Below are positions 3,754 to 37,464 of a stretch of 64,000 nucleotides of DNA, one piece after another. The stretch is from contig JANYKS010000097.1 of assembly GCA_025358125.1 (NCBI GenBank), forward strand, positions 124,001 to 188,000. The letters run 5' to 3'. Each line of letters starts with the position of its first letter. The first letter of the stretch is position 1. This DNA is from Actinomycetes bacterium. Lineage in GTDB: Bacteria; Actinomycetota; Acidimicrobiia; Acidimicrobiales; Ilumatobacteraceae. A model generated the notes under the pieces. That model ran no database searches, had not been told where the DNA came from, and saw only the letters and a list, made by a program, of their open reading frames with translations. Both the position numbers and the translations under genes were made by a program.

Positions 3754-3854
3754 TCGCGGCAACGAATGCGATCGACAACTGGGTCGGTCTCGGCCTCGCC
3801 GCGCTCGGTGTGATGTACCTGCTGTTCGTGCTCGTGTTCCCTGAGCGCTTCTGA
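3750..3854 (+). CDS. kdpF: KdpF small subunit
   Basis: 34-residue hydrophobic peptide from GTG 3750, with one membrane helix ([20 protein letters not shown]) and the short ERF tail expected of KdpF, which stabilises the KdpABC potassium pump. It overlaps the preceding small gene by four bases, and its TGA shares a base with the kdpA ATG (TGATG). It is too short for most gene callers; position and composition make the call. Confidence 0.8.
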
Positions 3855-5578: not shown

Positions 5579-5588
5579 ACGAGGAATC

Positions 5589-7700: not shown

Positions 7701-7701
7701 C

Positions 7702-8286
7702 ATGCGTGCGTTCATCCGCCAACTCCGACCAGCGCTGATCCTCGCCGTCATCTTCACGTTGATCTGCGGCGTTGGGTATCCACTGCTGACGACCGCGATC
7801 GGCCAGGCTGGATTCAACGACAAGGCCAACGGATCACTCATCACCCGCGGGGGGGTCGTGGTCGCCAGCAAGCTGATCGGTCAGTCGTTCGTCGCCTCGC
7901 AGTACTTCCACCCCCGCCCGTCGGCAGCCGGCGCCGGATACGACGGTTCGAGCAGTTCGGGATCCAATCTCGGACCGACCAACCCCGATCTGCTCAAGGC
8001 CGTCGGCGAGCGGGCCAAGGCCTACCGCACCGAGAACGGCCTCGCTCCAGACGGTCTCGTGCCGGTCGACGCCGTCACAGCTTCGGGCTCCGGCCTCGAT
8101 CCGCACATCTCGATCGCCAACGCCAGGCTGCAGGCGTCACGGGTGGCCAAGGCGCGCGGTCTGACCGTCGACCACGTGCAGACCCTGATCCGCGCCCACA
8201 CCGACGGTCGGGGCTTGTCCGTACTCGGCGAGCCAGGGGTCAACGTCGTCGAACTCAATCTCGCCCTCGATCAGCTGAACCCGTGA
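7702..8286 (+). CDS. kdpC: Potassium-transporting ATPase subunit C
   Basis: Single-pass membrane subunit of 194 residues, with an N-terminal helix (residues about 11-30) and then a periplasm-facing domain carrying the family signatures [17 protein letters not shown] and [15 protein letters not shown]. It assembles KdpA with KdpB. It starts one base after the kdpB stop. Confidence 0.96.
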
Positions 8287-8319
8287 GCAGATTCGCACGG
8301 AACGCGAGAGACTGACCGA

Positions 8320-10839
8320 ATGGCTCGCGGTTCACTGCGCATCTACCTCGGGGCGTCTCCGGGTGTCGGCAAGACCTACAAAATGCTCGGCGAGGGCGTG
8401 CGCCGCATGGAGCGTGGCACCGACGTCGTCGTCGGCATCGTCGAGACCCACGACCGGAATCAGACGGCCGGCCAGATCCGCGATCTCGAGGTGGTGCCGC
8501 TACGCCCGATCGAGTACCGCGGCACCGTGTTGCGCGAACTCGACGTCGACGCGATCCTTGCCCGGCGACCGCAGGTCGTGCTCGTCGACGAATACGCCCA
8601 CACCAATGCTCCCGGTTCGCCTAACGAGAAGCGCTGGCAGGACGTGGAGCAACTGCTCGAAGCCGGAATCGACGTGGTCTCGACGCTGAACATCCAGCAC
8701 CTCGAATCGCTCAACGACGTGATCTCGCGCATCACCGGTACCGTTCAACGCGAGACGGTGCCCGATGACATCGTGCGTCGCGCCGATCAACTCGAACTGG
8801 TCGATATGTCACCGGAGGCGATCCGCCGCCGAATGGCGCACGGCAACATCTACCCAGCGGAACGAATCGACACGGCTCTGGCCAACTACTTCCGGCCCGG
8901 CAACCTCAGCGCGCTGCGCGAGCTCGCGTTGCTGTGGCTGGCCGATCGGGTCGAAGAATCGCTGCACGGCTATCTCGACGCTCATGGCATCTCCGAGGCC
9001 TGGGAAACACGCGAGCGGGTGGTAGTCGGGATCACTGGCTTTGCTGGTGGTGAGGCACTGATCCGGCGTGCCTCGAGGATGGCCGGCCGGGTCAGCGGAG
9101 AACTCGTCGGGGTCCACGTCGCAGTCGACGACGGATTGACCCACGAAGGCGCTGATGCGTTGTCAGCCCAGCGACGCCTGGTCAGCGAGCTCGGCGGAAC
9201 GGCCCACGAGGTCGTCGGCCACGACACAGCGGAGGCGCTCGCCGCGTTCGCCCGCCGGGAGAAGGCGACGCAACTCGTGGTCGGCGCGAGCCGGCGGAGT
9301 CGTTGGCACGAGCTGATCCACGGCTCGTTCGTTGCCCGCGTCACCCGTCTTGCCGGCGACATCGACGTCCACATCATTGCCCATGAAGGGCTCGGGGGTC
9401 TGGCGGAGATACAGCGGAGGCGACCGCCGCCGACGCTCGATGGGCGGCGAATGTTGGCGGCGTGGCTGTTGACCGCGCTCGGGTTGCCGATCTTCATCGC
9501 GATCACACTCCCGTTGCGTGGCAGGATCGACCTCTCGACCGAACTGTTACTGATGCTCGTGGTGGTGCTCGCGATCGCGGCCATCGGCGGGCGGCTCGTT
9601 GCGGCCGTCGCGGCCGTCGTCGCGTCGTTGCTCATCAACTGGTACTACGTCAAGCCGTACTACACCCTGACCATTGCCGAGGCACAGAACGCGATTGCCC
9701 TGATCGTGTTCGTCGTGGTCGCGGTCGCGGTCGGATCACTCGTGAACACGGTGTCGCGGCGTTCCGTCGAGGCGCGTCGGGCCCGTCTCGAAGCCGAGGC
9801 CCTCGCCCGGTCGGCGACGAGTCTGACCGCCGATCCGGAACCACTCCCCCGTCTGGTCGAATACCTTCGCTCAACGTTCGACTTCGACGGTGTGCTGATC
9901 AGCCGTCAGGACGCGTCGGGGCCGGTGACCTTGGCCGAAGCTGGAGACGTCAGCACTCAACCAACGGCAACCCTGACGCTGTCGTCGAGCCTTCACGGCG
10001 ATCAGGGCCCGCTTCCGGTGCTGCAGGTGTTCGGCCGTCAGCTGTCCAACGACGATCAACGGCTGCTGCGGGTGCTGGCCGACCAACTCGCGATCGCGAT
10101 CGACAATCAACGACTCGCAGCGGAGGCCGGCGAGGCAGCCGGGCTCGCCAACATCGACGCCGTCCGCACGGCCATGCTGCGCTCGGTCTCGCACGACCTG
10201 CGCACACCTCTGTCGTCGATCAAGGCCATGATCTCGGGCCTGCGCGACCCCGCGGTGACCTGGACGACAGCACAGATATCCGAAGCGCTGCTCACCGTCG
10301 AGGAGGAAACGGATCGACTCAACCGGCTGGTCGGCAACCTGCTCGATGCAAGCCGCTTGCAGATCGGGGCACTCGCGGTCGACATCCGCGCCTGCGGGCT
10401 GGCCGATACGGTAGCCGCGGCGCTGCAGAGCGTGAATGCCCAACCGGGCATGGTCGAGGTCGACATTCCGCCGGACACCCCTGGCGTGATGTGCGACCCG
10501 ACGCTGCTCGAACGGAGCCTCGCCAACATCGTCAGCAACGCGCTTCGCCACAGTCCTGCCGGTCAGCCCGTTCGGATCGAGGCGGGTATCGTCGTCGGCA
10601 CCGTTCATCTCCGCATCGTCGATCGCGGAATTGGCATCGCCGCGGCCGAACGGACCAAGGTCATCGCACCGTTCCAACGCCTCGGTGACCAGGGCATGAG
10701 TGACGGCGTCGGGCTCGGGTTCGCAATCGCGCAGGGTTTCGTCAATGCCATGGCCGGTACGCTCACCCTCGACGACACACCCGGCGGAGGTCTCACCGTC
10801 ACCATCGAGCTGCCACAAGCAGTCGAGGTGGCCGCGTGA
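8320..10839 (+). CDS. kdpD: Sensor histidine kinase KdpD
   Basis: Membrane sensor kinase of 839 residues that detects potassium limitation and phosphorylates KdpE. In order: the KdpD P-loop domain with GASPGVGKTYKM (11-22), a universal-stress-protein domain (about 225-355), four membrane helices (about 375-475), a GAF-like region, the HisKA motif SVSHDLRTPLSSIK with His near 625, and an HATPase domain ending GLGFAIAQGF. Full length, all catalytic motifs present. It lies 33 bases after kdpC and overlaps kdpE by four bases. Confidence 0.96.
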   Translation: MARGSLRIYLGASPGVGKTYKMLGEGVRRMERGTDVVVGIVETHDRNQTAGQIRDLEVVPLRPIEYRGTVLRELDVDAILARRPQVVLVDEYAHTNAPGSPNEKRWQDVEQLLEAGIDVVSTLNIQHLESLNDVISRITGTVQRETVPDDIVRRADQLELVDMSPEAIRRRMAHGNIYPAERIDTALANYFRPGNLSALRELALLWLADRVEESLHGYLDAHGISEAWETRERVVVGITGFAGGEALIRRASRMAGRVSGELVGVHVAVDDGLTHEGADALSAQRRLVSELGGTAHEVVGHDTAEALAAFARREKATQLVVGASRRSRWHELIHGSFVARVTRLAGDIDVHIIAHEGLGGLAEIQRRRPPPTLDGRRMLAAWLLTALGLPIFIAITLPLRGRIDLSTELLLMLVVVLAIAAIGGRLVAAVAAVVASLLINWYYVKPYYTLTIAEAQNAIALIVFVVVAVAVGSLVNTVSRRSVEARRARLEAEALARSATSLTADPEPLPRLVEYLRSTFDFDGVLISRQDASGPVTLAEAGDVSTQPTATLTLSSSLHGDQGPLPVLQVFGRQLSNDDQRLLRVLADQLAIAIDNQRLAAEAGEAAGLANIDAVRTAMLRSVSHDLRTPLSSIKAMISGLRDPAVTWTTAQISEALLTVEEETDRLNRLVGNLLDASRLQIGALAVDIRACGLADTVAAALQSVNAQPGMVEVDIPPDTPGVMCDPTLLERSLANIVSNALRHSPAGQPVRIEAGIVVGTVHLRIVDRGIGIAAAERTKVIAPFQRLGDQGMSDGVGLGFAIAQGFVNAMAGTLTLDDTPGGGLTVTIELPQAVEVAA

Positions 10840-11528
10840 TCCGTGTCCTCGTCGTCGACGACGAACCCCAGATCAGGCGGGCGCTCAGCCTCAACCTGGG
10901 CGCGCGCGGATACGAGGTATTCGAAGCCACGACGGGTGAAGCCGCGCTCACGGTGGTGGCCGGCGAACACCCCGACATTCTGCTGCTCGACCTCGGCCTT
11001 GCGGGAATGGACGGCATCATGGTCATCGAGGCGTTGCGGGGCTGGACGAGGGTGCCGGTGATCGTGCTCACCGTGCGCGACGACGAACGTTCGAAGGTAC
11101 AGGCGCTCGAGGCTGGCGCCGACGACTACGTGACGAAACCATTCGGAATGGCCGAACTCGTCGCCAGAATCCGAGCGGTGCTGCGCCGTCACCCTGAGAC
11201 GGTGTGCGAGGCGCCCGAGGTGACCACCACGGCGTTTCGCCTCGATCTTGCCGCTCACCGCGCGTTTACCGGCCCGGAGATGGAAGAGGTCCGGCTGACG
11301 CCCATCGAGTGGGGCATCGTCGGTCATCTCGTCCGCAATCCGGATCGGCTGATCACCTACCGTCAACTCGTCACCGTCGTGTGGGGGCCGAGCTACGACC
11401 CCGACCAGAACCTGTTGCGGGTCCATATGGGCCATATCCGCCGCAAACTCGAACCCGATCCCGGGCGGCCGGCCTTCTTCATCACCGACTCCGGCGTCGG
11501 CTTCCGCTTCCAGCCGACCCCAGCCTGA
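10836..11528 (+). CDS. kdpE: Response regulator KdpE
   Basis: OmpR-family regulator of 230 residues. The receiver domain has the acidic pocket DDE (8-10), phospho-acceptor Asp52 and Lys101 (VTKPF); the winged-helix output domain ends VGFRFQPTPA. It is expected to activate kdp under low potassium. The phased CGTGAAG repeats at 3377-3426 are the obvious target. The gene overlaps kdpD (GTGA). Confidence 0.96.
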   Translation: MIRVLVVDDEPQIRRALSLNLGARGYEVFEATTGEAALTVVAGEHPDILLLDLGLAGMDGIMVIEALRGWTRVPVIVLTVRDDERSKVQALEAGADDYVTKPFGMAELVARIRAVLRRHPETVCEAPEVTTTAFRLDLAAHRAFTGPEMEEVRLTPIEWGIVGHLVRNPDRLITYRQLVTVVWGPSYDPDQNLLRVHMGHIRRKLEPDPGRPAFFITDSGVGFRFQPTPA

Positions 11529-23184: not shown

Positions 23185-24360
23185 CTACTTGCCTGCTCGG
23201 GGGAAACCGAGTCCGAACATCGAGATGAGATCGCGTTGCGTCTCGTTGGTACCACCGCCGAAGGTGAGGATGATCATCCCTCGGTAGCTCGATTCGAGGC
23301 GCGATCGAAGGACCGCGCCTGGAGCGTCGCTCTTGAGGTAGCCGACGGGCCCGATGATCTCGAACAGCAACCGCAGAGCCTCCTGGTAGAACTCGGTGCC
23401 GAAGACCTTCACGGTGGAGGCATCGGCAACGGCGAGCGTGCCCTGCGTCGCGGTCCACGCGACCTTCCAGTTGATCAGTCGCAGGAACTCGAGCTTGGCG
23501 TGCACCTTGGCGAGGTTGATCTGGACCCACTCCTGATCGATGACGCGCCGGCCGTCGGGGAGCTTGGTTTCCTGCGCCCACTGCCGCACTTCGTTGTAGG
23601 CCCGGTCGACGACGCCGGTCGAGCAGAGCGTGACGCGTTCGTGGTTGAGTTGATTCGTGATCAGGCGCCATCCGCCGTTCTCCTCGCCGACGAGGTTCTT
23701 GGCCGACACGCGAACGTTGTCGAAGAACACTGCGTTGATGTCGTGCTCGCCGATCAGGCGCAGCGGCTGGATCGAGATGCCGGGGGTGTCGAGCGCGACG
23801 ATGATGATGCTGATGCCCTTGTGCTTGGCGACCTCTGGATTGGTGCGCACGGCGAGCCAGCAATAGTCGGCGCCGTTGGCCAGGCTGGTCCACATCTTCT
23901 GGCCGTTGATGATGTACTCCTCGCCATCGCGGACAGCGCGCGTCTGGAGGCTGGCGAGGTCGGTGCCGGCATTCGGTTCGCTGTAACCGATGCAGAAGTG
24001 CAGGTCGCCGGCGAGGATCTTGGGGAGGAAGAAAGTCCTCTGCTCCTCGGTGCCGAACTGCATGATCGTCGGGCCGACGGTGTTGATGCTGAGCATCGGC
24101 ACAGGTGCCCCGGAGCGCATGGATTCGTCGAAGAATATGAACTGCTCGATCGGGCTCTTACCCTGACCGCCGTACTCCTTCGGCCAGCCGATTCCGGCCC
24201 AGCCATCGACACACATCTGCTTCCAAACGCTGCGCGTCTTGGGTGAGATGCCGTGTCCCTGCGCGAGTTCGGCGACGGTCTGCGGATCGAGGAGATCGTC
24301 GTAGTAGGCCCGCAATTCGGCACGCAGCTGCTCCTGCTCGGTGGTGTACCCCAGTTCCAT
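23185..24360 (-). CDS. Acyl-CoA dehydrogenase, FadE26/ChsE4-like large subunit
   Basis: Large ACAD of 391 residues. MELGYTTEQEQLRAELRAYY, GWPKEYGGQGKSPIEQ, IGYSEPNAGTDLASLQTRAV, LITNQLNHERV and LTFGGGTNETQRDLISMFGL closely follow FadE26 (ChsE4). With the next gene it should form the alpha2-beta2 enzyme for the first side-chain beta-oxidation rounds of 3-oxo-steroid CoA. The ATG has no Shine-Dalgarno; TAGCTT at 24372-24367 ends seven bases before it, so the mRNA is probably leaderless. Confidence 0.85.
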   Translation of the reverse strand: MELGYTTEQEQLRAELRAYYDDLLDPQTVAELAQGHGISPKTRSVWKQMCVDGWAGIGWPKEYGGQGKSPIEQFIFFDESMRSGAPVPMLSINTVGPTIMQFGTEEQRTFFLPKILAGDLHFCIGYSEPNAGTDLASLQTRAVRDGEEYIINGQKMWTSLANGADYCWLAVRTNPEVAKHKGISIIIVALDTPGISIQPLRLIGEHDINAVFFDNVRVSAKNLVGEENGGWRLITNQLNHERVTLCSTGVVDRAYNEVRQWAQETKLPDGRRVIDQEWVQINLAKVHAKLEFLRLINWKVAWTATQGTLAVADASTVKVFGTEFYQEALRLLFEIIGPVGYLKSDAPGAVLRSRLESSYRGMIILTFGGGTNETQRDLISMFGLGFPRAGK

Positions 24361-24377: not shown

Positions 24378-24398
24378 TTTCTGACGGTCTTTCAGAAG
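24378..24398. promoter_or_regulatory. Palindromic operator, copy 3
   Basis: TTTCTGAC-GGTCT-TTCAGAAG, two arm mismatches from the perfect form. It ends five bases upstream of the TAGCTT hexamer of the FadE26-like gene, the same distance as at echA20. Confidence 0.7.
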
Positions 24399-24442
24399 CG
24401 GCCAATCAGACGCGGCCAAGACGAATGCGATCGACAATTCCA

Positions 24443-24474
24443 GGTTTGCAGGTTTGCAGGTTTGCGGGTTTGCG
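24443..24474. repeat. 8-base tandem repeat
   Basis: Four copies of GGTTTGC(A/G) between operator copy 3 and the end of the SnoaL-like gene. It is non-coding on both strands in my reading. There is no hairpin; simple slippage is likely. Confidence 0.8.
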
Positions 24475-24492
24475 GTTGATCGAGGTGTCGGC

Positions 24493-24915
24493 TTACATCC
24501 GGACGTAGGCCATCCGCTCGGTTCGCTGATCGAGCAGCCACCCGCCGGCTGTGCGCACGGCGACGTCGTCGTACCATCCCGACGCCTCGACATACGTCGG
24601 GTCGCCCTCTGTCGCCGGGATTCGCATCAGCGTCGCGTATTGCGAACCGACCAGCGCCCGATCGCCGCTCGCGAAGGTGATCATCACGTTGGCCATTCGA
24701 TGGATCCGCATGTCGAACATCGTCATCATCGGCGCCAACCAAGCAACGGCCTCGGGAACCGAGCCGGCCACACCCCCGGCCGTCGTGTAGTCGAGATGGG
24801 CGGCACCGGTGAAACACGCCGACCACGCGTCCCAGTCGGCGAGGTTCAGCGCCTCGCTGTATCGGATCAGCAGATCGTTGATCTCGCTGCGGTCACTGAG
24901 CTCTTGCACGTCCAT
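24493..24915 (-). CDS. SnoaL-like / NTF2-fold protein
   Basis: Protein of 140 residues (158 bases of upstream spacing to operator copy 4 are not needed if it starts at the alternative ATG 24933). MDVQELSDRSEINDLLIRYSEALNLADWDAWSACF is cut here to its key parts: an acidic helix then RYSEALN and DWDAWSACF, the usual opening of SnoaL-like cone-fold proteins. Members include ketosteroid isomerase-like enzymes, hydrolases and dioxygenase small subunits. It is under operator copy 4, so a role in the catabolic programme is inferred; the reaction is unknown. Confidence 0.75.
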   Translation of the reverse strand: MDVQELSDRSEINDLLIRYSEALNLADWDAWSACFTGAAHLDYTTAGGVAGSVPEAVAWLAPMMTMFDMRIHRMANVMITFASGDRALVGSQYATLMRIPATEGDPTYVEASGWYDDVAVRTAGGWLLDQRTERMAYVRM

Positions 24916-24944
24916 CGCAGCAACGTACCCCATCGGTCGACGAA

Positions 24945-24965
24945 CATCTGACGTCTCGTCACATA
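24945..24965. promoter_or_regulatory. Palindromic operator, copy 4
   Basis: CATCTGAC-GTCTC-GTCACATA; the right arm has one change (GTCACA for GTCAGA). It sits between the divergent SnoaL-like (minus) and EthD-like (plus) genes. It is the weakest of the nine copies. Confidence 0.55.
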
Positions 24966-25132
24966 TGAACATCGGGTACGGTGACAGCTCGTGGGGACGA
25001 CTGCGGAGGTGATCGACGACTCGGGTGGTCTCGCCGACCAACTGCGCGAGGCCGGGCCCTACCGCACAGGTCAGACCATCGGTTCCGATGGCGGCTCGTT
25101 GCTCGGTTCGTAGACATTTCAAGGAGATCCAC

Positions 25133-25498
25133 ATGATTCAGCTCGTCACGATGCTCAAGCGCAAGCCGGGCACGACCCACGAAGAGTTCCTGCAGCATTG
25201 GCGCGATGTGCACGGGCCGCTTGTCAAGCGCCTCTCGTGCGCCCGATACGTGCGCCGCTACGAGCAACATGCGTCCGTTTGGCCGCCGCCGGGCAGCACG
25301 ATGAGCGAGCCGATATACGACGGCGTCACGATCCAGTGGTTCGACAGTGCGGACGATTTCCACGCCCACGTCATGGAGCCGGACCAGGCCGAGCTGATGG
25401 CCGATGTCGCCAACTTCCTCGACCTCGACGCGTTGCACTGGACGATCTGCGAGCCACCGGTCGTCGTGATCGGCGATCCGGCCGTCGATGGCGTCTAG
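25133..25498 (+). CDS. EthD-domain protein
   Basis: Small ferredoxin-like-fold protein of 121 residues: MIQLVTMLKRKPGTTHEEF, then HWRDVHGPLVKRL, the EthD signature, and FDSADDFHAHVMEPD. EthD proteins accompany P450 or other oxidative systems for xenobiotic breakdown; the molecular role is unsettled. The start is fixed by AAGGAGA at 25121-25127. It is about 170 bases downstream of operator copy 4. Confidence 0.85.
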   Translation: MIQLVTMLKRKPGTTHEEFLQHWRDVHGPLVKRLSCARYVRRYEQHASVWPPPGSTMSEPIYDGVTIQWFDSADDFHAHVMEPDQAELMADVANFLDLDALHWTICEPPVVVIGDPAVDGV

Positions 25499-25557
25499 GT
25501 GCGTCTAGCGGTGCCCGACGCCGATGTATGCCGACGACTCGTTGCCGCTGAGCCACT

Positions 25558-26208
25558 ATGGCATCCATGATCTCAGCGAGGACGCTCACCCTGACCGGCG
25601 CGCACGTACAACTCGAACCGTTGTCGCTCGACCATGTACATCAGTTGGTCGTGGCCGCCAACGAGGACCGCAGCACATACCGCTGGACGCCGGTGCCCGA
25701 CACCGCCGGGGCGATGACGAGTTACGTGTCGTCACTGCTCGCCGACGCCGAGGCGGGTCGTGTCGTCCCGTTCGCGCAGCGACGACTGAGCGACCTTCGC
25801 GTGGTCGGCTGCACCCGGTATCTCGAGATCAGGTACTGGACCGGCCGCGACCTGCCGGACGAAGTAGAGGTCGGAGGCACCTGGCTCGCCGCGTCTGCGC
25901 AGCGCACGCCGATCAACACCGAGGCCAAGCTGTTGTTGATGACCCATGCATTCGAGACCTGGGGCGTGCGGCGACTCGCTATCTACACCGATGCCCGCAA
26001 CACCCAGAGCCGTGACTCGATCGCGCGGATCGGAGCGACGCAGGAAGGCATTCTCCGCAACTACCGGGCGTCGGCCGTCGATGGCGAGATCGGGATGCAG
26101 CGCGACACCGCCGCGCACTCGGTGATCGATTCGGAGTGGCCGGCAGTGAAGGCCGGCCTGCTGCGGCGGCTCGAGCCAACCGAACCGACCGAGCCAGTGC
26201 CCGACTGA
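25558..26208 (+). CDS. GNAT N-acetyltransferase, RimJ/RimL-like
   Basis: Acetyl-CoA-dependent acetyltransferase fold, 216 residues: N-terminal LTLTGAHVQLEPLSLDHV, EVGGTWLAASAQRTPINTEAK (acetyl-CoA loop region) and RRLAIYTDARNTQSRDSIARIGA. The substrate could be a protein N-terminus or a small amine. The last residues EPTEPTEPVPD come from a repeat that continues beyond the stop codon. No operator is directly upstream. No strong SD is seen. Confidence 0.8.
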   Translation: MASMISARTLTLTGAHVQLEPLSLDHVHQLVVAANEDRSTYRWTPVPDTAGAMTSYVSSLLADAEAGRVVPFAQRRLSDLRVVGCTRYLEIRYWTGRDLPDEVEVGGTWLAASAQRTPINTEAKLLLMTHAFETWGVRRLAIYTDARNTQSRDSIARIGATQEGILRNYRASAVDGEIGMQRDTAAHSVIDSEWPAVKAGLLRRLEPTEPTEPVPD

Positions 26209-26256
26209 CCGAGCCAGCCGAGCCAACCAAGCCAGTGCCCGCCGAGCCGGCGCCCG
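26173..26256. repeat. Degenerate GAGCCAACC-type repeat across a gene end
   Basis: Nine-base units near GAGCCAACC or GAACCGACC, with a 13-base segment (GCCAGTGCCCG core) that appears at 26193 and 26231. The array crosses the stop of the acetyltransferase gene, so repeat growth may have moved the stop. Confidence 0.6.
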
Positions 26257-26274
26257 GCTGAGAATCCGCTTCCG

Positions 26275-26295
26275 TTTCTGACGGATCGTCAGAAA
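26275..26295. promoter_or_regulatory. Palindromic operator, copy 5
   Basis: Perfect TTTCTGAC-GGATC-GTCAGAAA. A promoter-like TACTGT follows at 26301-26306, and the gene it controls starts at 26351, giving a 40-base leader with a Shine-Dalgarno. Confidence 0.8.
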
Positions 26296-26350
26296 CTCGC
26301 TACTGTGTGCTTCTCGCCGCGTCCACGTCCATGGCGAAAAGGGGATTTCT

Positions 26351-27148
26351 GTGGCACTCGACAAGCCGATCACGCTCGGCACGATCCTGTTCACCATGGT
26401 CGAGCCGCACAAGGGCCATGAGGTCGAATACAACCGGTGGTACGAGACCGACCACTTCTACGGAGGCGTTCTCAACGGTGCGTGGAGCTTTGCCGGCGAC
26501 CGGTTCGTGGCAACACGCGAACTGAAGGACCTCCGCTACCCGGCAGACTCGCCGATGACCCCGGATCCGCTGACGGGTTCGTACCTCGCGCTCTACTGGG
26601 TCCTCGCCGGCAAGCACGACGAATGGAACCGGTGGAGCGTCGACACGGTGAAGATGCTCCACGCCACGGGGCGGATGTTCCCCCATCGGACCCACATCCA
26701 CACGCTCCTCTACGACTATGCGTGGTCGATCCAAAGCGACGAGCGAGGCACGCCGGCCGAGCAGGCGCTGGATCGTAACTACGCCGGTCTGGTCGTCAAC
26801 GTCGGCGAGCTCGCCGAGGGCAAGACCCCCGCCGATGTCGAGGACTGGACTCGCAACACCTGGGCACCGTCTGCGATCAGCACTGGCTGGGGGCCCGACC
26901 TGATCATCGACGCAACACCGCTCCCACTGCTCGACGATGCACCGCCCGATGTTCCTCGAACGGTCAACGCCGAGCGGCGCTTCCTGCAGTTGCATTTCCT
27001 CGATCACCTGCCCCAGCAGGGTTGGGCCGACGGCTACGCGAAGTTCGGCGAGCAACTCGACGCGAGCGGAGTCGGCACCCACCTGTGGACCGCGCCGTTC
27101 ATCCAGACGGTGTTCGGCACCGATGCACACACCGACGAACTCAGGTAG
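26351..27148 (+). CDS. Hypothetical protein, EthD-like dimeric barrel
   Basis: 265 residues from GTG 26351, placed by AAAAGGGGA eight bases upstream. No enzyme signature is recognised. The N-terminal YNRWYETDHFYGGVLNGAW and the C-terminal third (RFLQLHFLDHLPQQGWADGY) both look like alpha-beta-barrel (EthD/Dabb) halves, so it may be a fused dimer. It follows operator copy 5 and is five bases ahead of an epimerase-like gene. Its strict operator control suggests a specific place in the pathway, not a general one. Confidence 0.6.
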   Translation: MALDKPITLGTILFTMVEPHKGHEVEYNRWYETDHFYGGVLNGAWSFAGDRFVATRELKDLRYPADSPMTPDPLTGSYLALYWVLAGKHDEWNRWSVDTVKMLHATGRMFPHRTHIHTLLYDYAWSIQSDERGTPAEQALDRNYAGLVVNVGELAEGKTPADVEDWTRNTWAPSAISTGWGPDLIIDATPLPLLDDAPPDVPRTVNAERRFLQLHFLDHLPQQGWADGYAKFGEQLDASGVGTHLWTAPFIQTVFGTDAHTDELR

Positions 27149-27153
27149 GGATC

Positions 27154-28074
27154 ATGGATCAGATAACCGGCAAGAACATCCTCGTCACCGGGGTCAGTGG
27201 CTGGGTGGCCGGCCCGGTTGCGGCAGCGTTGGCAGCGAACGGCAACACGGTTTACGGAGCAGCCCGCTTCAATGACGCGTCGCAACGCGAACCGATCGAG
27301 GCGCAGGGCGTCAACACCATCAGCATCGACCTCGAATCCGGCCGTTTCGACGAGGTGCCAGAGGGGATCGACCTCGTGCTCCATTTCGCGGTCTCCAAGG
27401 ACACCGATTTCGAGCGAGCGTTCGCAGCCAATGCCGAGGGGCCGGCCGGGCTGATGGAGCGTTGCAGCGGGGCCGAGGCCTTCCTCCACTGCTCGTCCAC
27501 GGCCGTGTACGCGCCGGATGGCCATAGACCGCTGCTCGAGACGGACCCCCTCGGAGACAGTCATCGCACGATGGGGGGCATGCCCACATACAGCATCTCC
27601 AAGATCGCCGGAGAGGTGCTCGTCAAGCACACCGCCAAGCGGCTCGGCTTGCCGACGGTGATCGCTCGCCTCAACGTTCCCTACGGCGACAGCTACGGCT
27701 GGATGATGTTTCACCTGATGATGATGGAACGAAACATCGCCGTGCCGGTGCACGTCGATCAGCCGACGACATACACGCCGATCCACTCCGACGACCTCAA
27801 CCGGTCGTTGCCGTATCTCTTGTCGCTCGCGTCGACACCCGCCACCATCGTCAATTGGGGCGGCGACGAAGTGGCTGGGATCGAGGATTGGTGCGAGGAG
27901 ATGGGTCGCCTCACCGGGCTCACGCCGACGTTCGCGCCGACCGAGTCGACGATCGCGGCGATCGTCCCCGATCTCACCAAGCTGCACAGCACCGGATTCA
28001 TGAGCGAGATCGGTTGGCGCGACGGCCTCCGTCGTCAGATCGCGACGACCCGGCCAGATCTGCTGAAGTCGTAG
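27154..28074 (+). CDS. NAD-dependent epimerase/dehydratase-like SDR
   Basis: Extended SDR of 306 residues. Rossmann motif TGVSGWVAGP near 12-21 (Ala where the third Gly usually is), catalytic Tyr and Lys in YSISKIAGE with Ser in HCSSTAVYAP, then a lid domain. Extended SDRs include 3-beta-hydroxysteroid dehydrogenases, so a hydroxysteroid substrate is plausible here but unproved. It is co-transcribed with the EthD-like gene just upstream. Confidence 0.8.
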   Translation: MDQITGKNILVTGVSGWVAGPVAAALAANGNTVYGAARFNDASQREPIEAQGVNTISIDLESGRFDEVPEGIDLVLHFAVSKDTDFERAFAANAEGPAGLMERCSGAEAFLHCSSTAVYAPDGHRPLLETDPLGDSHRTMGGMPTYSISKIAGEVLVKHTAKRLGLPTVIARLNVPYGDSYGWMMFHLMMMERNIAVPVHVDQPTTYTPIHSDDLNRSLPYLLSLASTPATIVNWGGDEVAGIEDWCEEMGRLTGLTPTFAPTESTIAAIVPDLTKLHSTGFMSEIGWRDGLRRQIATTRPDLLKS

Positions 28075-28116
28075 ATTTCGCCCGCCTCGCCAGCCTCGCC
28101 AGCTCGTCAGCTCGTC

Positions 28117-28310
28117 AGCTTCTGCCCGCCGGGAGACTGCCCGTTCCGGGAGTCTGCCCGCCCTCGGTGTGTCCGGGAGTCTGCCCGCCCACAACCAGCG
28201 CCGGCACGACATCAGAAGGGCAGTGAGTCCGCCCGGCCGAACCAAGCGGAGTCTGCCCGCCCAAAACCAGCGCCGGCACGACATCAGAAGGGCAGTGAGT
28301 CCGCCCGGCC
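28117..28310. repeat. Intergenic direct repeats, 72-base period
   Basis: Two 62-base copies (28177-28238 and 28249-28310) differ at one base. Each opens with GAGTCTGCCCGCCC and ends GTGAGTCCGCCCGGCC, and each holds a CTGCCC...GGGCAG inverted pair. Shorter partial copies with CTGCCCG precede them from 28117. The array fills the 278-base gap between two convergent genes; I see no ORF in it. Confidence 0.85.
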
Positions 28311-28352
28311 AAGCCGAGCCGAGCCGGCCGAGGCGGGAGTGAAGCGGAGAGC

Positions 28353-29426
28353 TCAGCGCGGGCCGAGTACGGCGTCAGCGACTCGGCGTCGGTGGTACGA
28401 CGCACTGCCCCATGCCGGGATCAACGCCCAGGCCTTCTTCATGAACAACTGCAAGTCACATTCCCACGTGTATCCGATCGCGCCGTGCACCTGGAGCGCG
28501 CTGCGCGCCGCCTTTTGGGCGGCATCGGACGCCAACGCCTTGGCCATGCTGACGTCTCGACCAACGGTCTCGACGCCGTTCGCGTGCGACCATGCGGCGC
28601 GGTAGACGGCCGGGCGGGCGAACTCGACCTTCAACAGGGCGTCGGCCATCAGGTGCTTCACGGCCTGGAACGACCCGATCGGCTGACCGAACTGGCGCCG
28701 GTCACGGGCATAGTCACCGGCGATCGCGAGCATCCGCGACGAGAGGCCGAGCAGGTACGCCGATGCGGCGAGCGCGCCGGCATCGACGAGGTGATCGCGA
28801 TCCGCGGCGAGCACGACGCCGCGGGTCCCAGTGCCGGATCCGTCTCCGGCTTCGGATCCGTCTCCGGCTTCGGCTTCGGCTTCGGCTTCGGATCCGTCTC
28901 CGGCTTCGGTGCCGGTGCCGGCACCGGCGAGGGCGGACAACCGGCGGCCACCGTCGATTCCTTCGATCGTCGACTGCGACAATTCGGGATTCTCGATCGC
29001 GCGCACCACATCGCCGTCGGCGATCAGCAAGACCACACACGACGACGCGTGGGGCACGTAGCGCTCGCCCATCAACGCAGCGGTCACCGCGACTGAACCA
29101 TCGGCGATGCCGGCGGCCCACTGGGTGCCGCGCAATGCCAGCGCGCCGACCGTCATGGTCTCCAACACCGGGCCCGGTACTCCAGCCCGACCGAGTTCCT
29201 CGACCAGCAGTACCGAGTCGACGAAGTCGCCACCGAGGCCACCATCGGCGGTCGGCAGCATCATCGAGAGCACGCCCATCTCAGCCAGCCGCTTCCACAA
29301 CGCTGCGTCATTGCCCGTTCCGGACTCCCAGACGACGCGCAGATCGGACGCCGTGAACTCGCGTTCCAACAACGTGCGCAGGCCAGTTGCGAATTCGTGT
29401 TGATCGTTGGTGAAGCTGAACTTCAT
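28353..29426 (-). CDS. Acyl-CoA dehydrogenase, FadE32-like small subunit, with repeat insertion
   Basis: Small ACAD of 357 residues starting MKFSFTNDQHEFATGLRTLL, with FGQPIGSFQAVKHLMADAL and QVHGAIGYTWECDLQLFMKK at the C-terminus. It follows the FadE31-like large subunit by seven bases, matching the mycobacterial fadE31-fadE32 order. Residues about 168-202 are a run of Gly/Ala/Glu/Asp/Ser/Thr (unit EAGDGS) coded by an 18-base plus 6-base minisatellite; it falls between the beta domain and the C-terminal helical domain. The catalytic parts on both sides look intact, so I expect a working subunit. Confidence 0.8.
   Translation of the reverse strand: MKFSFTNDQHEFATGLRTLLEREFTASDLRVVWESGTGNDAALWKRLAEMGVLSMMLPTADGGLGGDFVDSVLLVEELGRAGVPGPVLETMTVGALALRGTQWAAGIADGSVAVTAALMGERYVPHASSCVVLLIADGDVVRAIENPELSQSTIEGIDGGRRLSALAGAGTGTEAGDGSEAEAEAEAGDGSEAGDGSGTGTRGVVLAADRDHLVDAGALAASAYLLGLSSRMLAIAGDYARDRRQFGQPIGSFQAVKHLMADALLKVEFARPAVYRAAWSHANGVETVGRDVSMAKALASDAAQKAARSALQVHGAIGYTWECDLQLFMKKAWALIPAWGSASYHRRRVADAVLGPR
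28836..28907. repeat. In-frame minisatellite inside ACAD gene
   Basis: Three copies of GGATCCGTCTCCGGCTTC (28836, 28854, 28890) with three extra GGCTTC hexamers between copies two and three. All steps are multiples of six, so copy-number change keeps the reading frame. Degenerate GGTGCC units extend it to about 28925. Confidence 0.9.
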
Positions 29427-29433
29427 GTCGGTA

Positions 29434-30585
29434 TCAGCCCCTCGGCAGGTTCAGCACCCGGTCGGCGATGATGTTGCGCTGAATTTCGTTCGTGCCTGCA
29501 TAGATCGGCCCGCTGAGGCTGAACAAGAACCCGTCGACCCATTGTTCGTACGGGCCGTCCATCCGCTCGCCGTCCGGGCCGAGCAACTGCATCGCCAGCT
29601 CGTGTGCACGCACGTCCATTTCGCTCCAGAAGATCTTGTTGAGGCTCGATTCGCTGCCGACACGGCCGCCATCGAGCAGCTTGGTCACCGTCAGATAGGT
29701 ATGCAGCCGATAGCCCTCCGCCTGCATCCACAGATCGGTGACGGCATCGCGCATCGCATCGTCGTTCGGATCGCCTATCTTGCGCCACAGATCGATCAAG
29801 CGCTCGACCGCAACGTGGAACCGGGCGGGGCTGCGCAGGCTGACGCCGCGTTCGAATCCGGCGGTCGCCATCGCGACGCTCCAACCCTGGCCGACACCGC
29901 CGAGGGTGTTCTCGATCGGCACGTGCACGTCGTCGAAGAAGATCTCGGCGAAGCCGGTGTCACCATCGAGTTGGACGATCGGGCGAACGATGACTCCCGG
30001 TGCGTCGAGCGGGACGAGGATGAACGTCAGCCCCTTGTGGCGGATCGATTCGGGATCGGTTCGGAAGATGCCGAAGCACCAGTCGGCCCAGACCGCGCGA
30101 CTCGCCCAGATCTTCTGGCCATCGAGGATCCACTCGGTGGCGTCGTCGCTCAGCCTGCCCGCGCTGCGGATGCTTGCCATGTCGCTCCCCGCTTCCGGCT
30201 CGCTCCACGCCTGTGCCCACACCTCGGCGCTGCTCGCCATCGCCGGAAGGAACCGTGTCTTCTGCTCCTGCGTGCCGACCTCCATGATCGTCGGCCCGAG
30301 CAGGAAAATTCCGTTCTGGTTCACGCGACCTGGCGCACCGACCCGCCAGTACTCCTCCTCGAAGATCAGCCACTCGAGGTAGTCGGCGCCGCGACCGCCG
30401 TACTCGACCGGCCAACTCACGGCCGACCAACCGGCCCCGTACAGCTTGGCCTCCCACTCGCGGTGCAGTTGGAAGCCCCTCTCCGTGTCGAAACTGGGCA
30501 ACGGCTGAGCGGGGACGTTTGCTTCGAGCCATGCCCGAGCCTCGGCCCGGAACGCCTCTTCCTCGGGAGTCTCGTTGAGATCCAT
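29434..30585 (-). CDS. Acyl-CoA dehydrogenase, FadE31-like large subunit
   Basis: ACAD of 383 residues. It matches FadE31 (Rv3562) in FEEEYWRVGAPGRVNQNG, AQAWSEPEAGSDMASI, SLRSPARFHVAVERLIDLW and SGPIYAGTNEIQRNIIADRVL. In mycobacteria fadE31-33 lie in the steroid C/D-ring cluster. It pairs with the small ACAD at 28353. TACTGT at 30599-30594 is eight bases from the ATG and overlaps operator copy 6, so transcription should start only a base or two before translation. Confidence 0.85.
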   Translation of the reverse strand: MDLNETPEEEAFRAEARAWLEANVPAQPLPSFDTERGFQLHREWEAKLYGAGWSAVSWPVEYGGRGADYLEWLIFEEEYWRVGAPGRVNQNGIFLLGPTIMEVGTQEQKTRFLPAMASSAEVWAQAWSEPEAGSDMASIRSAGRLSDDATEWILDGQKIWASRAVWADWCFGIFRTDPESIRHKGLTFILVPLDAPGVIVRPIVQLDGDTGFAEIFFDDVHVPIENTLGGVGQGWSVAMATAGFERGVSLRSPARFHVAVERLIDLWRKIGDPNDDAMRDAVTDLWMQAEGYRLHTYLTVTKLLDGGRVGSESSLNKIFWSEMDVRAHELAMQLLGPDGERMDGPYEQWVDGFLFSLSGPIYAGTNEIQRNIIADRVLNLPRG

Positions 30586-30597
30586 CGCTGCGAACAG

Positions 30598-30618
30598 TAT
30601 CTGACGAGTCGTCAGATA
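30598..30618. promoter_or_regulatory. Palindromic operator, copy 6
   Basis: Perfect TATCTGAC-GAGTC-GTCAGATA in the divergent gap between the FadE31-like gene (minus) and the SnoaL-like gene (plus). It overlaps the -10-like TACTGT of the minus-strand gene. Confidence 0.8.
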
Positions 30619-30622
30619 CTCA

Positions 30623-30655
30623 GACCATCGGCTCCACGACGACGAGCCGATGGTC
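30623..30655. promoter_or_regulatory. 12-base inverted repeat next to operator 6
   Basis: GACCATCGGCTC-N9-GAGCCGATGGTC, perfect in both arms. It lies five bases from operator copy 6 in the same divergent gap. It could be a second operator for another regulator or a hairpin in the 5' leader of the SnoaL-like mRNA. Confidence 0.55.
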
Positions 30656-30677
30656 GCCGATGTGAGATTCTGTGGGC

Positions 30678-31439
30678 ATGGCCGACACCGAATTCAGCAT
30701 CGAGGAGATGAGTTGCGCATGGGAGGAGTTCCTGCGTCTCGGTGCTCGGGGCCGCGACTGGCCCGAATGGGCAGCGCTGTTCACCGATGATGCCACATAC
30801 GTCGAACACTGCATCGGGCGCTTCCGTGGCGCAGCTGGTGTGCTCGCGTTCATCCTCGAGGCGATGAAGCCGGTGGCGCCGATGACGTTCTCGCTCGACT
30901 GGGCGATCCTGCAGCCGCCGTACGTCGCGTTCGACATCTGGAATCACATGCCAGACCCCGGCGACGGCCAGCGGTACTCGTTCAGCAACCTCACCCTGTT
31001 GGAATACGCCGGCGACGGCAGGTGGAAGTTGGAGGAGGACTTCTACGCGCCCCGGGATTCCGGGCGGGCGGTGACGAGGTGGTTCAAGGCCGGCGGCGCC
31101 GTGGACATGTCGCCAGACCCGGGCATCACCCACATCAGCCTGACCGAGGCACCCACGATCGAGGATCCCGATGGAGTTCGGGCGATGGTTGCCGCATGGC
31201 AGTCCGGAGCCCCGCACTACACCGGCGACGGCGAGATCTTCCAGCACGGCGTCGGCCGCATCCCGGCGGTGGATGCGACCACGATCATGACACCCGCCGA
31301 CGTGGTCGTGATGGACGCCAAGCGGGCGTTCCTGCGCTGCGGTAACACCGGCGTTGCGCTCACCCACGGCGGCGGCGGCAGGATCAGGTTCGAGGAACGG
31401 GCGAGCAATCCGACGGAGGCCACCGATGAGACGAGGTAG
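30678..31439 (+). CDS. SnoaL-like protein, long form
   Basis: 253 residues from ATG 30678 (a GTG at 30672 is possible). The N-terminal half has EEMSCAWEEFLRLGARGRDW and ALFTDDATYVEHCIGRFRG, an NTF2/SnoaL-type fold; the C-terminal half, with QHGVGRIPAVDATTI, is unrecognised. It overlaps by 14 bases with the oxygenase gene downstream, so both act together. It follows operator copy 6. Confidence 0.65.
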   Translation: MADTEFSIEEMSCAWEEFLRLGARGRDWPEWAALFTDDATYVEHCIGRFRGAAGVLAFILEAMKPVAPMTFSLDWAILQPPYVAFDIWNHMPDPGDGQRYSFSNLTLLEYAGDGRWKLEEDFYAPRDSGRAVTRWFKAGGAVDMSPDPGITHISLTEAPTIEDPDGVRAMVAAWQSGAPHYTGDGEIFQHGVGRIPAVDATTIMTPADVVVMDAKRAFLRCGNTGVALTHGGGGRIRFEERASNPTEATDETR

Positions 31440-32475
31440 TCCCGTCAGCACCGTCCCGGTCATCGACATCTCCCCGCTGCGCACCGGCGGCGACGTCGGA
31501 GCCGTCGCGTCCGCGCTCGACACGGCGTGTCGCGACACCGGCTTTTTCTGCATCGTCGGCCATGGCGTCGACATTGCGCTGATGGCTCGGCTCGATCGAA
31601 GTGCTCGCACGTTCTTCGCACTGCCCGAGGGGACCAAGGCCGGGATCGCGATGTCGGCGGGCGGAAGGGCCTGGCGCGGCTGGTTCCCGCTCGGCGGCGA
31701 GGTCACCAACGGCATTCCCGATGGCAAGGAGGGCCTGTACTTCGGCGCCGAGCTGGGTGAGGACGACCGGCGCGTGGCCAGCGGGACACCGCTGCACGGA
31801 CGCAACCTGTTCCCGCCCGATGTGCCCGAATTGAGAACCGCCGTCCTCGCGTGGATCGACGCGTTGACCACGCTCGGGCATGTGATGATGGGCGGGATCG
31901 CGGTCGGTCTCGGGTTGCCTCAGGACTGGTTCAGAAAGCACCTCACGAGTGACCCGACGGTGCTGTTGCGCGTCTTTCGCTACCCGCCGACAGCCGCAAC
32001 CGTCGGCGGTCCGGGCGGTCCGGGCGGTCCGGACGGTCCGGACGGTCCGGACGGTCCGAGTGGTTGGGGCGTTGCCGAACACACCGACTACGGGCTGCTC
32101 ACCCTGCTGATGCAGGACGACTGCGGCGGGTTGCAGGTCAAGGGCCGCAGTGGGTGGGTCGAGGCCGAACCGATCCTCGATTCGTTCGTGTGCAACATCG
32201 GCGACATGCTCGAGCGGATGACCGGCGGGCGCTACCGCTCCACGCCGCACAGGGTCCGCAACACCAGCGGTCGCGATCGGCTGTCCTTTCCGTTCTTCTT
32301 CGATCCGAGTTGGGACGCTCGGGTGACGCCGATTGGGCTTGCCCCCGAGGAGTCGTCGGTGGATGACGACACGCGGTGGGACGGGCACAGCGTCTTCGAC
32401 TTCGACGGCACATACGGCGAGTACCTCGTCGCCAAGGTCACCAAGGTGTTCCCCGATCTCTTCCACGCGATCTGA
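31426..32475 (+). CDS. 2-oxoglutarate/Fe(II)-type oxygenase (isopenicillin N synthase-like)
   Basis: Non-heme iron oxygenase of 349 residues with the facial triad His219, Asp221 (EHTDYG) and His275, and the 2OG-binding RxS at Arg285-Ser287. It opens with VPVIDISPL and GFFCIVGHGVD, the usual N-terminus of this family. Residues 194-213 are (Gly-Pro-Gly/Asp) repeats inserted just ahead of the HxD strand. It shares 14 bases with the SnoaL-like gene and lies in the operator 6 unit. Hydroxylation or oxidative cleavage of a pathway intermediate is the natural guess. Confidence 0.82.
   Translation: MRRGSPVSTVPVIDISPLRTGGDVGAVASALDTACRDTGFFCIVGHGVDIALMARLDRSARTFFALPEGTKAGIAMSAGGRAWRGWFPLGGEVTNGIPDGKEGLYFGAELGEDDRRVASGTPLHGRNLFPPDVPELRTAVLAWIDALTTLGHVMMGGIAVGLGLPQDWFRKHLTSDPTVLLRVFRYPPTAATVGGPGGPGGPDGPDGPDGPSGWGVAEHTDYGLLTLLMQDDCGGLQVKGRSGWVEAEPILDSFVCNIGDMLERMTGGRYRSTPHRVRNTSGRDRLSFPFFFDPSWDARVTPIGLAPEESSVDDDTRWDGHSVFDFDGTYGEYLVAKVTKVFPDLFHAI
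32008..32061. repeat. 9-base tandem repeat coding Gly-Pro-X
   Basis: Six units of GGTCCGGGC/GGTCCGGAC/GGTCCGAGT encode GPG, GPG, GPD, GPD, GPD, GPS. In frame, collagen-like, next to the metal-binding strand of the oxygenase. Confidence 0.9.
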
Positions 32476-32528: not shown

Positions 32529-32550
32529 TAATCTGACGCGGTGTCAGAAA
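32529..32550. promoter_or_regulatory. Palindromic operator, copy 7, overlapping promoter
   Basis: AATCTGAC-GCGGT-GTCAGAAA (32530-32550). TAATCT at 32529-32534 fits a -10 box, with the GTG start at 32541 exactly seven bases on, so the operator covers both promoter and start codon of a leaderless gene. Confidence 0.75.
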
Positions 32551-35724: not shown

Positions 35725-37464
35725 TTGCACATCCACGATCTGATCATCAGAGGCGGCACCGTCGTCGACGGGACGGGAGCGCCACGTTTCCTCGCCGACA
35801 TCGCGATCGGCAACGGTCGGATCACGGCTATCGGCAACGACCTCGGCGACGCCACGGAAGTTCTCGAAGCGACCGGTCTCATCGTCACGCCCGGCTTCGT
35901 CGACATCCACACTCACTACGACGGTCAGGCCACATGGGACAGCCTGCTCGAGCCGTCGAGCGGGCACGGTGTCACCACCGTGGTTGCCGGCAACTGCGGC
36001 GTCGGTTTCGCCCCGGTCCGCCCCGGCAAGGAGGAATGGCTGGTGCAATTGATGGAGGGCGTCGAGGACATTCCCGGCACAGCACTCCACGAGGGCATCT
36101 CGTGGGGTTGGGAGAGCTTCCCGGAGTATCTCGATCTGCTCGACTCCCGCCGGTACGCGATCGATATCGCGGCCTACATCGGCCATGGCCCACTACGCGC
36201 GTACGTGATGGGCGACCGCGGCGCGCGCAACGAGCCGGCAACGAATGACGACATCGCTGGGATGAAGAAGCTCGTCACCGAGGCAATCATGGCCGGCGCG
36301 GTCGGTTTCTCGTCGAGCCGCACACTCAATCACAAGGCCCGCGACGGCGAGCCGGTGCCGGGCACGTTCGCAGCCGAGGACGAGTTGAACGGCCTCGCCG
36401 ACGGAGTGGTCGATGCCGGTGGCGGCCTGTTCGAGGTGGCGCCACAAGGGCTCGAGTTCGAGGCGGAGGTGTTCTTGGGCGAGGTCGATCTGCTCAGCCG
36501 GATCGCGCTGCGGACCAAGCTCGCGGTCACGTTCGCGATGCTGCAGAACGAGCGCAATCCCGACTCGTGGAGGATTGCGCTCGCGAAGGTGGACGAGACG
36601 AACGCGGCCGGCGCCAACATGCGGCCGCAAATTGCGGCGCGCCCGTTCGGCATGATGATCGGGTGGGCCAACAACAACCCGTTCACGAAGCGGCCGACAC
36701 TGATCAGTCTGGTGTCGCGCTTCAGCGGTGAGCAACTGTTCGCCGAACTGCGCAAGCCGGCCGTGCGCGCGACGATTCTTTCCGAGGCCGACCTGGCGGC
36801 TGATCCGAGCATCCAGTTCGACGGGCTCGCTTCGTTCCTGCAAACGATGCTCGACAAGGTCTACGCGATGGGTGACCCGCCGAATTACGAGCCGTCGCCG
36901 GAGAACACCGTCGCCGAGTTGGCTGCTGCACGCGGCGTGTCGCCGATGGAGATGGCGTACGACCTGCTCAACGAGAGCAACGGCACCGCGTTCTTGATGC
37001 TGCCGTTCTTCAACTATGTCGGTGGCACGCAGGACGCAATTTACGAGATGCTGCAGCACCCGGCCACGGTTTCAGGTTTGTCCGACGGCGGCGCACACTG
37101 CCGGATGATCTGCGACGCATCGATTCCCACCTACGTGATCACCCACTGGGCGCGTGATCGCAAGAGCCTCAAGCTGACGCTCGAACAAGCCGTGAAGATG
37201 CAGACATACGACACGGCCGAGGTCGTCGGCTTCCACGATCGGGGCACGATTGAGGTCGGCAAGCGGGCCGACATCAACGTGATCGACATCGAGGAACTCG
37301 AGCTCGAATACCCGCGCGCCGTCGACGACCTCCCAGCCGGCGGGCGCCGGCTGATGCAGGCAGCCCGCGGCTACGTCGCCACGATCGTCAACGGCGAGGT
37401 GACCCGCCGCAACGGCATCGACACCGGCGCCCGCCCCGGCCGCTTGGTCCGCAGCACCCATTGA
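35725..37464 (+). CDS. Amidohydrolase, D-aminoacylase-like
   Basis: Metal-dependent hydrolase of 579 residues from TTG 35725 ([18 protein letters not shown]). His62 and His64 in DIHTHYDGQ bind metal; the distal Asp is probably in [15 protein letters not shown]. Related proteins are annotated N-acyl-D-amino-acid deacylase. They are often found beside fatty-acid and steroid catabolic genes, and a role in opening an amide or lactone is possible. It follows fadA6 by four bases, a likely operon. Confidence 0.82.

Follow-up and report, generated by a model that had tools for sequence, protein, structure and literature searches.

Hydroxysteroid dehydratases of two protein types, SnoaL and EthD, are already known from the degradation of bile salts by proteobacteria (PMC13101464, PMC12175502), and neither type is thus foreign to steroid catabolism. 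The 7beta-hydroxysteroid dehydratase of Sphingobium sp. Chol11, Hsh3, carries an EthD domain and has an alpha/beta barrel with two-fold symmetry; its deletion leaves a stalled HIP compound that still bears the former 7-hydroxyl group (PMC12175502). In Streptomyces, DatB and EchB are encoded together with DatC and EchC, the annotations being NAD-dependent dehydratase and limonene-epoxide-hydrolase-type protein (PMC9379647). Among the regulators of steroid catabolism, KstR2 has the motif AnCAAGnnCTTGnT (PMC3068626). The locus compared with these systems here occupies positions 24,378 to 32,475 of a 64-kb stretch (the window) of contig JANYKS010000097.1, which belongs to a 4.06-Mb, 93% complete genome (G000) of the Ilumatobacteraceae, order Acidimicrobiales. 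The original prediction placed there, under one shared operator, two SnoaL-like proteins, an EthD protein, a 265-residue protein resembling a doubled EthD domain (EthD2), an extended short-chain dehydrogenase/reductase (SDRe) and a 2-oxoglutarate (2OG)/Fe(II) oxygenase, mixed with acyl-CoA dehydrogenases. All of the genes it named exist as described, as judged by gene calling and hidden Markov model searches (Pfam, NCBIfam; Table 1).

Comparison of neighbourhoods across the order divides this region into a conserved core, composed of SnoaL_4, EthD2 and SDRe, and a lineage-specific pair, composed of SnoaL_2 and the 2OG oxygenase. In the explanation favoured here, to which we assign a probability of about 0.48, the region belongs to a steroid-catabolic regulon, the core takes an oxygen substituent off the steroid nucleus, or off a seco or C/D-ring intermediate, and the SnoaL_2-2OG pair is an addition peculiar to the lineage.

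The association with steroid catabolism shows in co-occurrence with ipdA, counted in 247 other genomes of the order (101 ipdA-bearing and 146 ipdA-free). EthD2 is present in 82 of the 101 ipdA-bearing genomes and in only one of the 146 others; absence from related steroid-degrading strains, which would have spoken against such an association, is not what is seen for this family. Within those taxonomic families that hold both kinds of genome, by which the counts were stratified and which do not amount to a correction for the full phylogeny, EthD2 was found in 45/52 ipdA-bearing genomes against 1/53 others (stratified exact p 2e-14) and SnoaL_4 in 38/52 against 2/53 (p 1e-9). Among the 69 genomes that carry SnoaL_4, 66 also have ipdA and three do not. 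The association reaches far beyond the genome from which it was proposed, with the core co-inherited with ipd throughout the order. Elsewhere in the phylum the EthD2 family is found in 14 of 193 genomes, a figure that counts in G000 and members of the order.

Gene neighbourhoods, compared in relatives that include metagenome-assembled genomes of freshwater and soil Acidimicrobiia, Ilumatobacteraceae and Microthrixaceae, place the core inside ipd clusters in several families. EthD2 lies between EchA20 and ipdF in L043 and L045, SDRe and then SnoaL_4 directly follow ipdC-ipdB-ipdA in L152, and in L149, L150, L151 and L154 both of the latter genes are ~15 kb or less away from ipd genes. An EthD2-SDRe-SDRe arrangement adjoins the same pair of acyl-CoA dehydrogenase genes (FadE.b/c) in L031-L034 and in many of L193-L208, and the 28353/29434 pair itself adjoins ipdC in L043 and L045. 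No counterpart of the orphan genes is named in the mycobacterial cholesterol route, and their placement outside that established route stands.

The operator on which the predicted module was founded is real. The palindrome TCTGAC-N5-GTCAGA, with at most one mismatch, occurs at nine sites in the window against 0.15 expected, a number reached in 0 of 100 shuffles, and exact copies number 17 in the whole genome against none for a reversed-pattern control. At least two exact copies are present in 50 of 96 ipdA-positive genomes versus three of 146 ipdA-negative genomes; shared control with the ipd genes is upheld in that a predicted operator is common to both and recurs in ipd-bearing genomes of the order. 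Compiled over 50 different sites, the matrix reads TCTGACGnnnCGTCAGA, has flanks mostly of A/T and falls outside the KstR2 type; presumably, it is also unlike the KstR motif. Neither the window nor those operator-adjacent genes that were examined, not all of them annotated, yielded a recognisable regulator gene. The exact sites at 26277 and 30600, which precede EthD2-SDRe and SnoaL_2-2OG, are well placed, and the site at 24380 is supported because most loci of the sister set L166-L170 (L166, L167, L168 and L170) have an exact copy in the corresponding position. The site at 24947 is the only one able to serve SnoaL_4 and the single-domain EthD gene; five sister loci lack it there, and direct control of either gene is accordingly unproven. 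The claim that one operator controls all of the orphan genes is thus supported for EthD2-SDRe and SnoaL_2-2OG and unproven for SnoaL_4 and EthD, whose site is weak and unconserved.

EthD2 itself has no match in Pfam (none to E 0.1, PF07110 included), in NCBIfam or among PDB sequences, although 461 relatives were met in one scan. Its AlphaFold model (pLDDT 93.1, pTM 0.91) consists of two ferredoxin-like repeats that form one alpha/beta barrel, and the reading as a double EthD-like protein is borne out as a likeness of fold only. The closest structure is an unnamed marine protein (2pgc; Z 16.1, root-mean-square deviation 3.5, 195 residues aligned), and the family keeps an invariant stretch, Y27-x-R29-W30-Y31-E32-x-D34-H35. 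Structural matches to sulfur oxygenase reductase, DyP and coproheme decarboxylases were set aside as reflecting the common barrel only. On a bolder reading, somewhat less likely than not, EthD2 would be an undescribed enzyme family that is standard in the steroid catabolism of Acidimicrobiales and some other bacteria, that acts in ring deoxygenation (dehydration or isomerisation) without a mycobacterial counterpart, and that stands under an operator unlike those of KstR and KstR2. In a sister genome, an F420-type LLM gene (TIGR03619) directly follows EthD2-SDRe (L170:11733-12578).

The other two members of the core have recognisable distant homologues. The SnoaL_4 profile matches the hydroxysteroid dehydratase BaiE (4l8p, 6.7e-12; 4leh, 2.1e-11) with Tyr, Asp and His positions aligned, and its AlphaFold model (pLDDT 94.6) has LinA, scytalone-dehydratase-like proteins and BaiE among its Foldseek neighbours. 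SDRe is a full-length homologue of TerB (6d2v, 9e-45), retaining a nucleotide-binding motif (VTGVSGWVA) and the catalytic YxxxK motif (YSISK), and has DatB and EchB as its Streptomyces counterparts. Homologues of both are also found beside Hsh3. The Hsh3 homologues named in PMC12175502 were located on pNL2 (WP_011906908.1) and pMSHV (WP_234810817.1), and on pMSHV of S. herbicidovorans the Hsh3 gene, a SnoaL_4 homologue (WP_037468047.1) and an SDRe homologue (WP_197053233.1, 36%) fall inside a 10-kb stretch that also holds other SDR genes. Of 14 sphingomonad plasmids, 11 have a SnoaL_4 homologue at a distance of 6-13 kb from the gene for Hsh3. On pDND3A of Rhodococcus gordoniae, an Hsh3 relative is accompanied by SDR, NTF2 and F420-type genes, with a TIGR03619 gene preceding the Hsh3-like gene.

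From these genes, their operator, conservation, co-occurrence, neighbours, folds and distant homologies, we infer the reactions, substrate, stereochemistry and order of steps in the proposal that follows. SDRe would reduce a ring ketone to an alcohol, which SnoaL_4, of NTF2 type, or EthD2, with its tandem alpha/beta barrel, or both could then eliminate as water; in near relatives of this genome the small EthD protein (25133) would join the core. Differently hydroxylated or oxidised sterols or bile acids might thereby enter the common ipd (HIP) pathway, and the SnoaL_2-2OG pair, under the same operator, probably adds or processes a further hydroxyl group. The most natural guess for the substrate is a 7-oxygenated sterol, a class of compounds that arises by autoxidation.

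Several observations weigh against this proposal. SnoaL_4 of the window lacks the full Tyr-Asp-His set: Tyr25 and His78 are kept, and Asn30 stands at the position of the putative catalytic Asp, which we take to be Asp35 of BaiE. Homologues from Sphingobium, as well as L103 and L152, retain the Asp, and the same position holds V, A, T or S in nearby Ilumatobacter-type homologues; His is replaced by Ser in 15 of the 42 homologues met. The sample of 14 sphingomonad plasmids is made up mostly of closely related strains. EthD2 shows no sequence relation to Hsh3 (blastp E 0.13; hhalign probability 0.3% against five Hsh3 relatives), and the transfer of function to EthD2 accordingly proceeds through fold type and partners only. 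Up to six EthD2 paralogues are found per genome, which means that their substrates may differ, and the sphingomonad EthD2 genes belong to another cluster, together with a Baeyer-Villiger enzyme. As a candidate orthologue of Hsh3, EthD2 was rejected by sequence, with only the general fold type common to both.

Those paralogues and sphingomonad clusters also feed a different explanation, in which the core serves the breakdown of other cyclic terpenoids that end in the same acyl-CoA machinery and the operator marks a general polycyclic-lipid regulon. The EthD2 homologues on Sphingobium megaplasmids (43-44% identity) are clustered with a cyclohexanone-monooxygenase-type gene, alpha/beta hydrolases and amidohydrolases, with nothing annotated as KshA or KstD, and other operators in the genome studied here precede genes for FadD/CasI-like ligases, CYP, LLM (F420-type), OYE-type, amidohydrolase and aldehyde-dehydrogenase proteins. 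Yet a terpenoid role sits poorly with the single ipdA-free genome of the order that carries EthD2, with the position of EthD2 inside ipd clusters and with the SnoaL_4 and SDRe homologues at the Hsh3 locus; it is unlikely, while retaining some weight.

The orphan genes could instead stand in for a core step of ring A/B or C/D degradation that these bacteria lack, rather than form a side branch. EthD2 is almost as constant as ipd itself, and a KshA of the PF19298 type is found neither in the present genome beyond background (26.8 bits; genome 93% complete) nor in 49 of the 96 ipdA-positive genomes. However, neither EthD2 (43/47 KshA-positive versus 39/49 KshA-negative ipdA genomes) nor SnoaL_4 (28/47 versus 38/49) is anticorrelated with KshA, and EthD2 is therefore no obvious substitute for KshA and was rejected as such. 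Moreover, this genome does have the ipd genes known by name from the mycobacterial route, and on its contig C1 a KstD-like flavoprotein far under cut-off adjoins a divergent, non-KshA Rieske oxygenase (L147:8552-12137), both candidates for divergent ring A/B enzymes. We consider the replacement of a core step rather unlikely. With half of the ipd-bearing genomes devoid of a recognisable KshA, ring opening in the order deserves a fresh look. A search of this genome for the complete canonical 9,10-seco set of rings A and B gave, besides the KstD-like gene and no KshA_C, an extradiol dioxygenase on contig C89 that adjoins ABC-transporter genes and whose score with HsaC is lower than that with biphenyl-diol dioxygenase. 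In a relative without KshA, L155:8259-18999 combines a KstD-type gene with a pair of Baeyer-Villiger-type monooxygenases, a tandem-SnoaL gene and two amidohydrolases like that at 35725 of the window, possibly an alternative ring A route.

It is improbable that EthD2 is a cofactor-free monooxygenase, or an isomerase or cyclase, rather than a dehydratase. Its next structural neighbours, 'monooxygenase PenE' (9kdp, Z 14.1) and the anthrone-oxidase-like 5f9p (Z 13.9), along with bacterial chalcone isomerase among the Foldseek neighbours, would suit these activities, but they match at fold level only, as general barrels of ~7-12% identity, and the genomic setting favours partners in reduction and dehydration. 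That the orphans are unrelated passengers among steroid genes, for which GNAT without an operator and the position of the SnoaL_2-2OG pair away from ipd genes elsewhere may be cited, is very improbable overall and already unlikely for the core in view of the co-occurrence, the synteny over tens of genomes and the conserved operators of EthD2, SDRe and SnoaL_4.

The proposed side branch that removes an oxygen substituent does not extend to the whole region as a unit. A single eight-gene module was rejected: in the mixed families the 2OG gene is found in 4/52 ipdA-bearing genomes against 2/53 others (p 0.095), neither it nor SnoaL_2 occurs near ipdA elsewhere, and the 2OG orthologues of other genomes do not adjoin steroid genes. 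Whereas the core is found order-wide, the SnoaL_2-2OG pair is syntenic in near relatives only, with the order of the window kept in L170 and the 2OG gene flanked as in the window in L171 and L214. Relatives of SnoaL_2 are ~307 residues long with two SnoaL domains, of which the second is shortened in the window copy. The oxygenase retains HxD...H and the 2OG-binding RxS, with PDB matches to 9ovh and 6jyv. An extra oxidation step, as suggested by the original prediction, fits this gene but not the core, which looks like reduction followed by dehydration. Repeated GGTCCGGGC/GGTCCGGAC units at 32005-32065 encode a Gly-Pro-Asp-rich insertion in the oxygenase.

Table 1. Operators and genes of the region, in window coordinates
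Feature	Position	Strand	Remarks
FadE	23185-24360	-	operator 24380 lies upstream
Operator, 1 mismatch (TCTGACGGTCTTTCAGA)	24380-24396		upstream of FadE 23185-24360(-)
SnoaL_4, NTF2 fold, BaiE-like	24493-24933	-	Pfam 1.2e-22
Operator-like site, 1 mismatch	24947-24963		not conserved in relatives
Single-domain EthD protein	25133-25498	+	PF07110, TIGR02118
GNAT	25558-26208	+	not in the original prediction
Operator, exact	26277-26293		57 bases upstream of 26351; kept upstream of many EthD2 orthologues
EthD2, 265-residue tandem dimeric-alpha/beta-barrel protein, unnamed family	26351-27148	+	AlphaFold model, ipdA co-occurrence
SDRe, TerB-like	27154-28074	+	PDB 6d2v, 9e-45
Acyl-CoA dehydrogenase	28353-29426	-	
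Acyl-CoA dehydrogenase (FadE)	29434-30585	-	divergent from SnoaL_2
Operator, exact	30600-30616		between divergent FadE 29434-30585(-) and SnoaL_2 30678(+)
SnoaL_2 protein	30678-31439	+	Pfam search, alignment of relatives
2OG/Fe(II) oxygenase	31426-32475	+	HxD..H..RxS intact; 9ovh, 1.8e-130
Operator, exact	32532-32548		before DUF35-type gene (32541/32646) and Ltp3/4-like thiolase 33020
DUF35-type gene	32541/32646		behind operator 32532
Ltp3/4-like thiolase	33020		behind operator 32532

The surroundings of the region are those of steroid catabolism. On one side, at 12.5-20 kb of the window, lies an igr-like side-chain operon with Ltp2, a MaoC-DUF35 fusion, two FadE, an F420-type LLM enzyme and CYP; on the other, at 34-48 kb, are FadA6, IpdC, IpdB, IpdA, EchA20 and IpdF-like genes, the Ipd names being given by family matches and the established mycobacterial gene order. 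The labels FadE26/27-like and FadE31/32-like attached to the dehydrogenases are plausible but not proven, and the product of 28353 scores 138 bits with IpdE2, under the cut-off of 450. An imperfect direct repeat (ACCAGCGCCGGCACGACATCAGAAGGGCAGTGAGTCCGCCCGGCC) occupies 28190-28315, between SDRe and the dehydrogenase genes.

The single-domain EthD protein passes the Pfam PF07110 gathering score (2.9e-19, 70.4 bits versus 22) and is syntenic near the 265-residue gene in most of L166-L192. Directly before it, at 25045-25110(+), is a C-terminal SDR remnant (..TGQTIGSDGGSLLGS*). The gap between SnoaL_4 and EthD is 0.2 kb in the window and ~1.4 kb in L166 and L170, where it holds two SDR-like reading frames; with the remnant, this suggests that the window probably lost both by deletion. 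GNAT, without an operator, occupies the same place in many relatives. Behind FadA6 stands an amidohydrolase gene (35725-37464(+), 579 residues), a 46%-identical relative of which occurs in the Sphingobium EthD2 region (L248:679-2433), and a complete kdpABCDE potassium-uptake set (3854-11528) lies amid the operator-controlled steroid genes.

Together, these data suggest that steroid catabolism in this lineage, which is common in soil and fresh water, has a control site of its own and involves a family of proteins unnamed in the domain libraries searched. If so, a single enzyme assay would tell what several hundred unnamed proteins do and how uncultured actinobacteria handle oxidised sterols and bile acids.

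Compared with the KstR and KstR2 regulons of mycobacteria, the locus shares the use of palindromic operators over ipd-type genes, and differs from the KstR2 regulon in the motif itself (AnCAAGnnCTTGnT there, TCTGACGnnnCGTCAGA here). With the NTF2-type dehydratases Hsh2, BaiE and SteC (Hsh1), SnoaL_4 has in common the fold, the Tyr and His residues and a profile match over the length of BaiE, but its Asn in place of Asp and low identity set it apart, and its role as a dehydratase is a prediction from sequence. SDRe resembles TerB (EchB/DatB) of p-terphenyl biosynthesis over its full length, whereas TerB is a biosynthetic enzyme of an aromatic substrate; the partner of the Streptomyces genes, which we take to have an NTF2-like fold, is of the limonene-epoxide-hydrolase type and not SnoaL_4. 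Finally, Hsh3 belongs to another organism, has no detectable homology with EthD2 or the EthD protein of the window, and is encoded in a cluster other than that of the Sphingobium EthD2 homologues. EthD2, by its model, and Hsh3, according to PMC12175502, are both of the EthD/dimeric alpha/beta-barrel type with a symmetric barrel in a setting of steroid degradation, and in S. herbicidovorans Hsh3 is clustered with homologues of the SnoaL_4 and SDR that accompany EthD2 here.

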